Source of the DNA: Nannobrachium achirus
Lineage: Eukaryota; Chordata; Actinopteri; Myctophiformes; Myctophidae
Reading direction: 5' to 3'
Assembly (NCBI GenBank): GCA_963921795.1
Contig: OY997645.1
Span: 35,578,582 to 35,642,581, forward strand
Length of the DNA stretch: 64,000 bases
Shown: in pieces, positions 5,371 through 59,500 of the stretch
How the letters are laid out: every line of letters begins with the position of its first letter
Position numbering within the stretch: the first letter of the stretch is position 1
Position numbers and translations under genes: made by a program
Notes under the pieces: generated by a model
Database searches by the model: none
What the model saw: the letters and a program-made list of their open reading frames with translations, nothing else
What the model was told of the DNA's origin: nothing

Positions 5371-5440
5371 AAAATAGACGCTCTACAAGCTCACAACATG
5401 ACCCGAAGCGTCGCATTGTGAGCTTGTAGATCTTCTGATT
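5371..5440. repeat. hairpin module copy in hAT 5123
   Basis: Arms CTCTACAAGCTCACAA and TTGTGAGCTTGTAGA, loop with GCGTCG. Flanks AAAAATAG and TGATTTCACT. Confidence 0.8.
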
Positions 5441-5519
5441 TCACTAGTTTGGGTCCCAGGCATAGGCCTATGTATAATTTCTCTTTTGGGTCTCAACCTG
5501 AAAGGTTTGGGAACCACTG

Positions 5520-53500: not shown

Positions 53501-56500
53501 TCATTTACAGTTATTGGCAATAGATTCATTGCATTTTATTATTCTTATATATCATAATAGTATGTATCTTATTTGTATTTTTAACAATCACTTTCGATAT
53601 TGTGGAAGAAAATTTAAAACGTGTCCTCTTGAGGTTTACAATTCATAGCTATTTACAACTTCACATGTACAGTTTGACTTAAACAAGTAATAGGGCAAGA
53701 CATAAGCTGTAGTTGAGAGATAAAACAGTAAATACTTACAAACAACAATCTGAGGTTACTGCCTTGGAGAGACTTGAGAAGGTTTGTGACTCCTGTCTCT
53801 AGACCTCCACCAATGAAGATGCCATTGCTGAAGTGATACAGCAAGATAGTTCTAAGGGCATTGACGTCACCTGAAAATTGTAATTGTTAACAATTCACAA
53901 ATCAGTACATAAACACCAACTGTAAAGTAAATGATAAAAATTAAATCATATGGATCTCTGGATCCACATGAGAATTACTTGACCCCAATGTGGATCATTT
54001 ATTTTGCCCAGTCATCTATGACGTCATTCGTCTATATGTCACTCAACTCTATGACATGATGTATCATTCCAAATTTGGGCTAGGCTTCAGGTCAGAGGCA
54101 GAGCCTCAACGACTTCATCATAAAATTAAATATTCATAAAAATAAATAAATAATGGAGGTACTTATGTGGCCTACTGGCATTGTGCACAAGAAATCTGGC
54201 GCTGATTGGTCCAGCAGCTTTTTATTTAAGATCCAGACACACAGTCCTTTTTGATTGATTGAAAAAAGGTCCAACCCTCTTATAGACGGCCAGACTCCCG
54301 CAGAGCCACGCCGTAAAAAATAAATACAATACATAAATAAAATAGAACACAATACTAAATCAACGAAGAACTGTAAAGAGTCCGGGAAACTAACCTCTCA
54401 ATAAGTCCAAATCCCTCTCTCTCACACCAGCGAAAGCTTTGTCACTGGGAGCAAACAGGGTAAACTCTCCTTCCTGTTTCAGCAGGTCAGTCAAGCCAGC
54501 AGCTTCCATCAGGGACAGAAAGATCCTACAGCACAGAGAAGAAAACAGTTCCTTGGCTGTCACAGAAACCACTGAGGGCTGAGACCAGCACTTTTCTAAT
54601 CCAATTTTAAGCTGCACGTATTATATGAAATGAGAGAGCATATGGTTTGAGTATAATGCAGGGGTCTTCAACGTTTTCAGGCCAAGGACCCCTTAGTTGA
54701 GAGAGAGATGAAGCAGGGACCTTTCCATAGATTCCATATAGTTTCACTGTTTGACAGCACAATCATCAGTGTATTTTGGATTCATGTCAATTTGTGTTAT
54801 CAGATATGTAACCATGCACTTGAACCGTCAATACTTAATAAACTTGACCTTTCGCTCTGTACTTAGTCTGCTCTTTTTCCTCTCTACACCAAACCTCTTT
54901 GCCGAAAATAGTCGACCTACACGCTCACAACGCCTCGCAGCTTGTAGATCTGCTATTTTTGGCTAAAGTTCTCAGAATATGGAGGCTAGGGTTCAAGTGG
55001 TTAATCTACTGTAAAAAGGAGAAACAAAGTTTCTGTCATACAAAGATTTGGAGGACCCCCTGTAGTAACTCTGAGGATCCCCTAGGGGTCCCGGACCCCC
55101 TGTTGAAGACCCTTGCTATGTTTTAATAATCCTGCCCATTTTTATCGTCACACCCCCCTCCCCTCCCCCATACTTACTTGAAGCCACCGTGTTCCGTCAG
55201 AATCTGGTACATACTTTTCTCTGACGGTTTCATGAACATCTTCATGAGGTGAAGGGCTCCATTGCTGCCCTCTTTGCTGCCTCTTATCAGACAGGAATTC
55301 TCAATGCATACGGCCTGCAGAAACAAGTAAAGTAAACATTAGTTTTAAATAATTTCAGGAGAAAAGGCATATATTTCTCTTCAAGGTAAAGTAATTATTA
55401 TACACAATGCTATTGCAACCGTAGGTCGCAGTTAACTATGGAAACCGGCACATCTTGTCTGTATCTCTGTCAGTCACGCCTGACACTATGGTTCCCCTAA
55501 CACATCACTGTGACATCACAGGCTCAGAGCAGGGATAATGCCTGATACTGTGGTTCCCCTGACACATCACTGTGACATCACAGGTGACATCACAGTGATG
55601 TCAGATACTCAGAGCAGGGATCTCCACATATGGGTATAAAAAGTGACATCACAGTGGTGTGGCTAGTTCAGACTGGGATCTCGTATGGGCATAAAATGGA
55701 TTGTATGTTGTGAATGATGTCATGGGAACCACTCTTAACAGAATCCATTTTATGCCCATATATGAGGCGTCTTACTAGTTAGTTGTAATTTTGTGACCTG
55801 AAATCTTTTTTTACTGTAAAATGAGGTGTCACGCTGCATCAACTGAGCGCTTTTTCATGTACAGCTATCTGAAAGGGATGTTCTGTGTGCTTTGTTTTAG
55901 TGGTGAGCTGCAACTATATTTGGGCATCACTTCAGAGTAATGAAGAGGGCTTACAGTGCGGTAGATGAAGACCCTCAGGAACTTTCCCCCGAGGGTCTCC
56001 AGACGCTGGCCATTGTACAGTTGGCCTAGAACAACCTTGTTCTTCAGGACGTGGTTCTCCAAAATGAGCCTTAGCAGCCTCTGATCCATGGACATTACTT
56101 CATCTGAAAAAAGACACAATTGAATACCTTACATGTTTGCTCTTGCTAATTCCAATAACAACAACAATAATAATCATACAATAATAATAGGCTAATATTC
56201 ATAATAGCTCGACTACTAATACTACTAATTATATTAGAACAAGAAATCTTGGATGACACAGTTCCTCTTTCTTTTGGACCAAAATGCCTTTCCTACCCTC
56301 TTCAAACGTCTTTCGTCATCTTTTGGGAAACGATTAAAGGAAGCTTAGAAAAACAGCAGTGGCAGGCAGAGAACAGACCTTTGGGGCAGACTTCGCTGCT
56401 TTTGAGCAATCTGATTTACTGTACTGTCCTGTACATGGAACATGGTCTGCAGCCCACAAATCTTGTTTCAGGATAGGGAGGCTTTTAACTGTTGCACCAA

Positions 56501-59500
56501 TACATTTAACTGCTTTTGGCGTTCCTCACTCACTATTGAAATGTATGCCGCTGATGATAAATGTTTTCCCCTTCAATTAATTGCATGTGTTGGGAGTTCT
56601 TGACTCACTTCTTTTGGATGGTACCGTAGGTATGTTCCCTGGGGGAGTGGGTACGTGTGTATTCACTCTTCCAAGTCGTAAAGCTTCAGCAAAGCTGTAT
56701 TGCATGTACTGTACCGTGTATGCAATGTATATTCTCACATTAGACAGATATGGCTGTCTGACTCACCCGTGAAGACAGAGTTCAAGGGAGCCAGCAGAGT
56801 GTACTCCATATCTGCCTGCATATCACCAGCCAGGCCCAACTCTGATACCATGTCACCGAAGGTGGACTGGGCACTGCCGATCAGCTCCATCACCTGTTTA
56901 GCTTTGAAGGCACAGGAAACCCAGAAACTATTAATATCTGATTGTTCCATGCAGCATGATTTTTTTTATTTTTTTTTAGCTTTAAACAAAAAAACAGCAC
57001 GATTCCTATATGCCCAACAAAATGCTGTACATACATTACCCATTAACTTAACACCCTAAGGTCCGGGAAAGGAATACACAATCCTAACCTGAGTCAGGCA
57101 TGAGCACTTGGTCAATGAGGTGGATGACACCATTGGTAGTGACGATGTCCTTCTTCAACACCATCTTGATGCCGTTGACGGTGAGACTGTCTCCATCGCA
57201 TCCGATCTCAATGTTGTTCCCCTCCATGGTCTCATGGGAGGTGCCAGCCATGATGCCCTCGGAGCACTGGACTGAGTTCAGGAGGTGGAAGTTCAGCAGA
57301 GCTACGGAAAAAAAGAGAAATAAAAGTGTAATCTCGTCTTTAAGCCTCTGCAGGAATTTGGACCATACACATAGAAAAAGAAGTTGGGTTTTGACTGGGT
57401 GAGTTGTGGAAGAATTATGTATTGGCTATTTTCTGTAATAATTCTTTACTCCAGTGTTTCATTGACGGTTTTATTCATTCTTTTATGTGTTCGGGGAAAC
57501 TCCCCATTTCTTTTTACTTCCATTTGATGACTTGGTGTTCTTGTTTTCAGAGCCTGTAATGATCTTTGTAAATTGTTATTATTATTAAATGTGATTGTCA
57601 GTCAGTGAAGGCCTGTTGGAGCTTCCAGTGTTCAAGTGCATGTGTGGATGATATGAACCACCAACCACCTGAAGGCCCTTTGGATCCCTTGGGCCCTTGC
57701 ATGAGAAAACTCACAGCCTTTTAGTGAACTGGTTTGATCTTATCGTATAGGGCAATCTTGGGGCTAATAAAAATGTTAGACTTGTACTGGTGCCATTCTG
57801 TCTGGCGTGGTGAATAATGCAGCTGTTTCCTGCTTCTCAATGTCACACAATCCTAAATTATATTAATGTTTGCTTTTTACTTTATTTTCTGATTGTGTGT
57901 GTGTGTGTGTGTGTGTGTGTGTGTGTGTGTGTGTGTGTGTGCGTGTGCGTGTGCGTGTGCGTGTGCGTGCACCAACTTGTCCTGATTTAGCAAATATGAC
58001 CTTATTTTGTGACCTGCACACACTGTACATATTTTCCAGTAAACCAAATGATTTGTCATAAACATTTGACAAACATCAAAATTTTACAAACAATTTGTCT
58101 GCTTTTTCTGACTTTCCATTTGTTTTATCACACCCACTTTTGTATGTACAGTTTGCCAAATCCATAACATGGTCTGTAATAGTTTGAATGGGAAAATCTG
58201 GAATGTGAAAAAAATAAAACCCCAACATGTTGGTTACAAGGACCTAAATATATGCCAACTGTCCCGTTATCTTGTTAAACATAACCGTGGTCCTAGTTTG
58301 GGCATCGCCCAGGAGCTAATCTAAATACTCCAACCTTCACTGTTTAAACTATAGCATGAGCTTGATCCTGAATGAGTAACATGCATTCCAGAGAGGTGAT
58401 TCTCGGACACCAGCCCATGGTTTACCTTGGAGGACTTCCTTGTCAGCCATAAGTCTTTCCAGGACGCCCGATCCCAGCGTCTCAAAGGCTTCATTTGTGG
58501 GGGCGAACAAGGTGTACTGCCCTGGTTGACCCAGCTTGTCAATCAAGCCAGCGGCAGTAGCCACATCCTAGAGGGAGATGTCATATCGTCACTGTTGGGC
58601 AGAAACCTTGTATCTCCAATTTTCAAATATGTACTTTTTTTTCGTAATTCCGAGGCGTTGTGTGCTCGTAGATCGGCGATTTTCACTATTTTAAATCGTT
58701 TTGAAAATGATAAATCCAATACGAACAGTTTTTGGACATACAGTACAAAGTTTCCACCCGACAACAACGATATAGATCAGTGGTTCTCAATCTTTTTCAT
58801 GTCAAAGACCCCAAAATGCATGTGTAGGCCTATTTGGCCGCAGACCCCCGACTGAAAAGATTTTGTGCCAGGGTTTGTGCCAAGCTTGTGGATTGGCTAT
58901 TTTCCAATACTAGTGTGCTCTTCGGAGGGCTTTTCTCAGCCAGGAGGATTAACATATCTATAACATACAGTGCAACTTTACGGGACTTTATGCCTTTTTT
59001 TGTAAGAAAAAGGCCATGCCCACAATGCAGGCAAACGGTATGGAAAATCTAAATCCTATTTGACCTTCATTGTCAAAAGACACGATCATTTGTGCATACG
59101 GTAATTTGGTGAAAAAAAGTCTGATGATCTAAGGAATACAGGGGATTTCTTTTTATTGTATGACCTAATAGGTCAATAGGCCACAACATAAACCGGCCTG
59201 TTATAGCACCAACTTTATGTCTTCCTTTGGCTTACTGGGGCGAGTGTGCATGCAAAGTTTGATGCTGATTGGTCCAGTGGTGTCTGAGATTAGCTGCGCA
59301 CAGACGGACGGACACACACACACACACACACACACACACACACACACACACACACACAAACACACACACACACACACACACACACACACACACACACACA
59401 CACACACACACGAACAGGAGTAAAAACATAACATCCGCCTCCTGGTAGTAAATGAATCAAAAGAACAGAACAGAATCCCACTCACCATCAGAGTGGACAG

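Follow-up and report, generated by a model that had tools for sequence, protein, structure and literature searches.

A 71-bp palindromic module shared by families of short transposons with different ends in Nannobrachium achirus

Introduction

How does one short palindrome come to lie inside many transposable elements whose own ends differ? The question is raised by a 64,000-nucleotide stretch of the genome of the myctophid fish Nannobrachium achirus (assembly GCA_963921795.1, contig OY997645.1, positions 35,578,582 to 35,642,581 of the forward strand), hereafter the window, in which a preliminary description made from the letters alone had reported a recurring hairpin module near the symmetry axis of inverted-repeat elements with unlike termini. 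Here we show that the module is a discrete near-palindrome of 71 bp, that it is abundant throughout the sampled genome, and that nearly every examined copy of several families of miniature inverted-repeat transposable elements (MITEs) carries it. At a probability of about one half, we read it as the core of an old palindromic micro-MITE that became part of the founding copies of many cut-and-paste MITE families, whose transposases then copied it.

Results

The module is a discrete and abundant unit

The unit starts AAAATAGC-M-GATCTACAAGCTCACAACGC. The arm 20-mer GATCTACAAGCTCACAACGC has 17 matches in the window with ≤3 mismatches against none in 100 shuffles, and with ≤1 mismatch it occurs 236,254 times in the whole genome (118,748 forward and 117,506 reverse; 1,658,514,493 bases in 564 contigs), while the reversed pattern gives 0. 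A profile trained on the two-armed copies finds 16 modules in the window at E<1e-3, 87 when 200 kb are added to it, and none in resampled control sequence. All 16 lie among the 21 places named in the preliminary description and none lies elsewhere; of the five other places, 29549-29600 and 31745-31792 can be read as decayed copies, while 21834, 25643 and 58883 are short remnants at best. The recurrence in the window is thereby confirmed, and its density is ordinary for this genome: in 30 loci placed at round coordinates (250 kb in all, including 6,697 N) the profile finds 90 modules, distributed over 27 of the 30 loci, from which we extrapolate a genome total of about 0.6 million. No exact match to the arm 20-mer was found in viral contigs, and Rfam at gathering scores gave no match to a known structured RNA family in the window.

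The edges of the unit were placed from several measurements. The distance from GATC to GATC is exactly 53 bp in 35 of 42 two-armed pairs, and AAAATAGCM outside each arm brings this span to 71 bp. Among 141 arms, chosen by the inner word AAGCTCACAACGC with ≤2 mismatches, the consensus letter is present in 72-95% of rows at each position inward from AAAATAGC, the M position excepted, and one base further out conservation is lower (44% A, 36% G). Comparison between 88 flank groups shows identity beyond the unit falling from 0.35 to 0.29 at 6-8 bp and then to 0.26, with a small bump of 0.30 at 16-24; the clustering threshold behind these groups was too strict and split some families, and only its position table is used. 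In 13 representatives of the families, complementarity between the two sides continues for ~7 bp past the unit: each of the seven nearest offsets has 5 to 8 of the 13 complementary, where 3.4 are expected, and a few higher values appear again at offsets 16-18. In the same representatives no target duplication of at least 3 bp (3-9 bp looked for) recurs at the module, and 2-bp direct repeats at offset 3, seen in 4 of 13, are within chance.

Folded as single strands, four copies from the window give z of -5.5 to -15.1. The loop is palindromic as well and comes in three main kinds (CCTCGC, GTCGCA and GGCAC), and changes between families are often matched in both arms, for example CATGC in F2 and GCACAC in F3 (families of hosts are numbered with F and loci with L). 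Over 46 distinct copies, 79 cells are changed in both arms, against a mean of 41 and a maximum of 58 in 500 shuffles; since the shuffle ignores relatedness, and 23% of the cells are unpaired, this result is supportive and not proof. In three F3 copies (window 28731, L024:384, L012:9185) an unmatched pair beside GATC, A on one side and C on the other, is seen in both orientations, as if the centre flips.

The hosts have different ends

Sorted by the likeness of their flanks, 101 modules form 15 groups of at least two (19, 14, 9, 7, 6, 3 and nine pairs), some of which are local duplications, and 25 singletons. A search for end pairs around the modules was unspecific, since it succeeded for 15 of the 101 modules and also for 9 of 189 control centres, and the rows were therefore judged by eye; in the ten hosts judged to have real ends among the 15 candidate rows, the module lies at 0.35-0.66 of the host length. 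The termini given in the preliminary description were recovered in the window: CAGGGGTCTTCAACG at 12025, 39341 and 54659, the CAGTGGTTCTCAACC type at 13660-14089, TAGGGCTGTCAC at 51343-51715, AGAGATGGGA at 36103-36613, ATTTTCATCCATGCC at 47021-47207, GTTGTCGGGTGGAAACC at 28650 and CAGTGGTGGAAAAAGTACT at 29111. Its central observation, a discrete unit common to families with different ends, is borne out. The window features are as follows, with the strand where one was assigned.

5371..5440, module in an F11-type host, with end-like words at 5131 and 5505-5519 (CAGTGGTTCCCAAAC-like) (profile, flanks)
8968..9031, decayed module, flanks unmatched in the sample (profile)
12210..12271, centre-deleted module in the F0 host 12025-12398 (profile, flank alignment)
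13660..14089, plus strand, F2 host with ends CAGTGGTTCTC and 8-bp target duplication ATCTAGAT; module 13787-13857 (end-pair reading)
17538..17610, module with singleton flanks and a GTCG-type loop (profile)
28474..29056, plus strand, outer element CAGGGACGTGCTGG with 8-bp duplication ACAATCAC, containing an inner F3 host and the module 28726-28806
29549..29600, centre-deleted module in a CAGTGGTGGAAAAAGTACT-type host
31556..31624, module of F2 type with the CATGC variant; left end of the host at 31473 (profile)
31745..31792, decayed one-sided copy, under the profile threshold
36103..36613, plus strand, AGAGATGGGA host with near-duplication GGTTAAAA/AGTTAAAA; centre-deleted module 36270-36312
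37103..37167, module of F1 type (profile)
39341..39769, plus strand, F0 host flanked by the 8-bp duplication CTGTAGAT, with a one-armed module at 39583-39622
45378..45437, module with GC-rich flanks, the left one common to L011:615 (profile)
47021..47207, 187-bp host with inverted arms and ends ATTTTCATCCATGCC; module 47081-47134
48553..48622, module with singleton flanks (profile)
51343..51715, plus strand, F4 host TAGGGCTGTCAC; centre-deleted module 51444-51496
54659..55115, plus strand, F0 host; module 54900-54964
58590..58766, minus strand, F3 inner host; one-armed module 58650-58688

YARNG is the end motif of the hAT type, and inverted YARNG-type ends together with an 8-bp target duplication were found at L024:1115, L024:9655 and the window positions 13788 and 39586. 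The F0 (CAGGGGTCTTCAACG), F2 (CAGTGGTTCTCAACC) and F4 (TAGGGCTGTCAC) hosts have hAT-like ends and 8-bp duplications, and the host duplications seen are ACAATCAC, ATCTAGAT, CTGTAGAT and CCTTACGG. F3 is a smaller host with ends GTCGGGTGGAAACC and GTCGGGCAGAAACC, which in the window is nested in the CAGGGACGTGCTGG element. Several F1 loci (L010, L019, L023, L028) contain two modules ~235-320 bp apart. The aligned families each have one module site. The claim that the module sits near the symmetry axis of its host is loose: in the 13 representatives the complementarity ends ~7 bp beyond the module; the F2, F3, F4 and F11 hosts are hardly palindromic around it, and clearly longer arms were noticed in two copies, at window 47081 and at L004:1492.

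Some further features of the hosts and of the window were observed. F0 hosts such as 54659-55115 have TTAACCACTTGAACC to the left and to the right of the module, as a nested element bounded by TTAA would have at its ends. The flanks of five decayed modules (window 17538 and 48553, L025:6468, L027:7943, L021:6963) share a CG-rich word like GACGGTGTCGCGCAT, perhaps from an older, longer palindromic host. Two perfect inverted repeats lie outside the listed modules, at 41439-41640 (90-bp arms, 22 bp between) and 46727-46884 (72-bp arms, 14 bp between). Open frames at 14191-15096, 8488-8928 (minus) and 59201-59722 (minus) have MIT (below the Pfam cut-off), Senescence and Fasciclin domains and point to spartin-like and fasciclin-type genes; the exons with Senescence and Fasciclin domains agree with a vertebrate genome.

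Module variants follow their hosts

Core differences between copies average 7.7 within and 14.4 between families (34 copies, 8 families), and none of 2000 shuffles is as low; with local duplicates and an F4 pair with a chimera left out, the values are 7.7 and 16.0 (29 copies, 6 families), again with 0 of 2000 shuffles as low. Variants that track their hosts argue against frequent present movement of the module between families.

Carriage was counted from the host side. With 12 arm queries in the window and the placed loci, 66 host-arm matches reach the inner end of the arm, after 35 matches that stop short of it or at a locus edge were dropped, and 58 of these lead into a module, 5 into a remnant and 3 into neither by the test used. 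The last three are one F2 place and both arms of the F3 copy L023:8350; the letters of the module edge are still present there, and we therefore regard these places as centre deletions. Five of the short-stopping arms, which run into other sequence, are cut off before the module site. In the genome as a whole, the gap is 66-96 in 416 F3 copies and 0-30 in 30 (gaps of 31-65 were outside the search). Exact F4 arms are followed by the module edge in 912 cases and match an edge-excluding pattern in 8; this pattern passes only ~1/3 of unrelated sequences and misses T before ATCAATG, and F4 arms without the edge may therefore really number some tens. Since almost every examined member of these unlike families has the unit, it follows that the founders had it.

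Empty-looking hosts are probably mostly centre deletions

Among copies with both module ends in the examined loci other than L029-L038, 30 of 56 are full length (71 bp) and 26 are shorter. A genome search returned 210 short F0 copies and, between TAGTGAAAA and TTTTCACTA (TAGTG ends), 2,985 short-centre places against 243 for the reversed control. Of 50 distinct short-centre places listed, 12 fit an AGCT junction, 7 a GATC junction and 0 a GC junction, lengths being taken from coordinates only.

A few copies look like hosts that never held the module. Three of 30 short-gap F3 copies read TGATTTAAACTAGTTTTGTGC, module-free with a single TA, one of 47 short-gap F11 matches reads TTTAAGAAGTAGTTTGGGTC, and two F4 hosts, L033 and L034, are without the module. 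ACTAGT in F3 and TAGT in F11 stand at both ends of the unit, so that deletion yields the same product as an empty TA site, and L033 and L034 differ from what exact insertion at TA predicts. We read the empty-looking copies as mostly centre deletions, although insertion at TA may also have occurred.

We also considered an inner unit inserting at the TA of AAAATATTTT, as 9 of 75 short F0, 2 of 30 short F3 and 1 of 47 short F11 copies might suggest. This candidate was set aside because the junction it predicts, TAGTGAAAATATTTTCACTA, has only 14 occurrences genome-wide against the 2,985 short-centre places, and AGCT and GATC junction lengths are commoner.

One sub-group of hosts shares more than the module

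F0, F5 and their relatives share ~100 bp of arm. A 100-bp profile of the F0 left arm gives 18 matches at E<0.01, all adjoining a module; they take in F5 copies at L014, L020:5786 and, at L004, the other arm. This count includes eight loci fetched for holding a module; restricted to the window and the placed loci, it becomes 10 of 10. Among 12 weaker matches (E 0.06-4.2) 7 adjoin a module, 3 of 7 in the window and placed loci. The right-arm profile adjoins a module in 14 of 15 matches (8 of 9 in the unbiased loci), the exception being window 32385-32417 (E 5e-4), with no module in the modelled direction. A B-type copy may be linked to this sub-group, if weakly, through flank alignment and a left-arm match at E 3.5.

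At L026:2572-7073, in a 3,049-bp tandem duplication, one copy joins an F0 arm to a B-type arm at the module and the other has F0 on both sides. One flanking arm of the module is therefore not the same in the two tandem copies, a pattern that unequal exchange at the module would leave. It follows from the F0-arm matches and the L026 junctions that in one sub-group the common interior extends beyond the module, and that arms have been exchanged at it. The preliminary description held that the shared centre is hard to explain by descent and that descent of every host from one element would overturn this; for most families no shared whole-host ancestry is visible, while for F0, F5 and relatives alone such descent applies.

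Discussion

The explanation that we favour, at roughly even odds, derives the module from an old palindromic MITE of very short length, of which it would be the core. Probably about one time in each family, this core would have become embedded in the copy that founded the family; many cut-and-paste MITE families would be concerned, several of them hAT-like with 8-bp target duplications. It would later have multiplied as an internal domain, not mainly by its own movement, and the transposases of the hosts would be the simplest source of its copy number. Within a family the two arms change together, as if one arm were copied from the other in the hairpin, and the centre is steadily lost through deletion.

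Several observations weigh against this explanation. The module lacks a recurring target duplication, its 2-bp repeats stay within chance, and the symmetric bases outside the core vary by family (TAGTG, TTGTG, TTAGCC) without explanation. L034 is a complete F4 host, with the duplication CCATCGGG, that has no module. Twenty-five of the 101 modules have flanks unlike those of any other sampled copy and may be free insertions or members of small families. The arms common to F0, F5 and relatives mean that some hosts are not independent of each other, and "once per family" counts some acquisitions twice. Neither a free-standing young copy of the module nor a transposase with its ends was identified, and no genome-wide search for either was made.

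If the module arrived by its own transposition, it may have been a MADE1-like micro-MITE inserting at TA, in the form TA-GTGAAAATAGC...GCTATTTTCAC-TA. This possibility, which we put clearly below an even chance, draws on the TA present on both sides in F3, F4 and F11, on the single-TA module-free copies of F3 and F11 and on the complete host L034. Against it, the direct repeats at the unit ends let deletion mimic an empty site, and deletions are common; L033 and L034 depart from the exact prediction; and the inner flanks in F1, F2 and F8 do not have TA on both sides. Over the 13 families as a whole, 2-bp direct repeats are not above chance.

The module could also have been captured as filler when each MITE was born, if, during interrupted gap repair, a longer transposon lost its interior and the deletion junction took up a module that had been excised or copied. 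The missing target duplication is consistent with such capture, as are the position of the module between two unlike host arms in nearly every examined copy and the different left junction of the F4 copy L010:1762. Capture of this kind would be expected to leave random cut points, and instead the same 71-bp unit recurs with the same edges; we consider it rather unlikely. We would give a similarly low standing to the idea that the module acts as an amplification cassette: as a DNA hairpin it would promote the spread of any short transposon carrying it, so that carriers founded many successful MITE families of this genome; the hairpin might aid synapsis or replication, or escape silencing. Founders could have carried the module by chance, through capture at the internal deletion that forms a MITE, or through an effect of the hairpin on amplification, and the data do not choose firmly among these.

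Less probable again is a single palindromic ancestor of all hosts that already had this centre and exchanged its outer arms through recombination there. The F0 left-arm matches at E<0.01, F5 at L014 included, all adjoin the module, and unlike arms are joined at it in the tandem duplication (L026:3954) and at L023:3311, as such a history would predict. Beyond ~8 bp, however, the flank groups share nothing except the small bump at 16-24, and in F2 and F4 both ends of one host flank the module. The preliminary description itself had suggested two other origins. Template switching may have added the module as a cap when such elements arose; the copies in which clearly longer arms were noticed are 47081 and L004:1492. 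A mobile hairpin targeting palindrome tips, for which the longer arms of these two copies would speak, is very improbable, given that symmetry ends ~7 bp outside the module in the 13 representatives, that the F2, F3, F4 and F11 hosts are hardly palindromic around it, that each aligned family has one site, and that variants follow their hosts.

Nested MITEs are common. It is unusual, however, that with few exceptions each examined copy of several families with unlike ends contains the same short palindrome, in a genome estimated to hold 0.6 million of them. The hairpin, which lies in about a dozen otherwise dissimilar kinds of small element, was either present when each kind was founded or helps the elements multiply. 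If carriage preceded amplification each time, this would be a testable point on what starts MITE bursts. To study how centres are deleted and arms kept matched, this single genome supplies natural replicates of one palindrome by the thousand. In a limited search we recognised no publication describing the 71-bp unit, so it is not shown to be unpublished.

Among known systems, the F0, F2 and F4 hosts resemble hAT-like MITEs in their CAGGG/CAGTG/TAGGG ends and 8-bp duplications, and the module is not known to be part of any hAT definition. The Angel palindromes of zebrafish and the inner inverted repeats of Tol2 offer a comparable arrangement in fish, a palindromic MITE within a hAT element. The module is a short near-perfect palindrome, as is human Made1 (MADE1), which has two 37-bp arms and a 6-bp loop (PMC1784062). 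Both are ~80 bp, non-coding, near-perfect hairpins of two inverted arms with a tiny loop. Made1 is tied to Hsmar1 ends (PMC1784062), whereas for the module we know of no transposon with matching ends, no search for one having been made, and its copies sit inside other MITEs. In MER6, the highly conserved domain of V-SINEs (short interspersed elements; SINE V) is carried inside a DNA transposon of other origin, which has taken this short domain to other genomes (PMC6887750). The MER6 domain is SINE-derived (PMC6887750), whereas here one palindrome is common to many MITE families of one genome.

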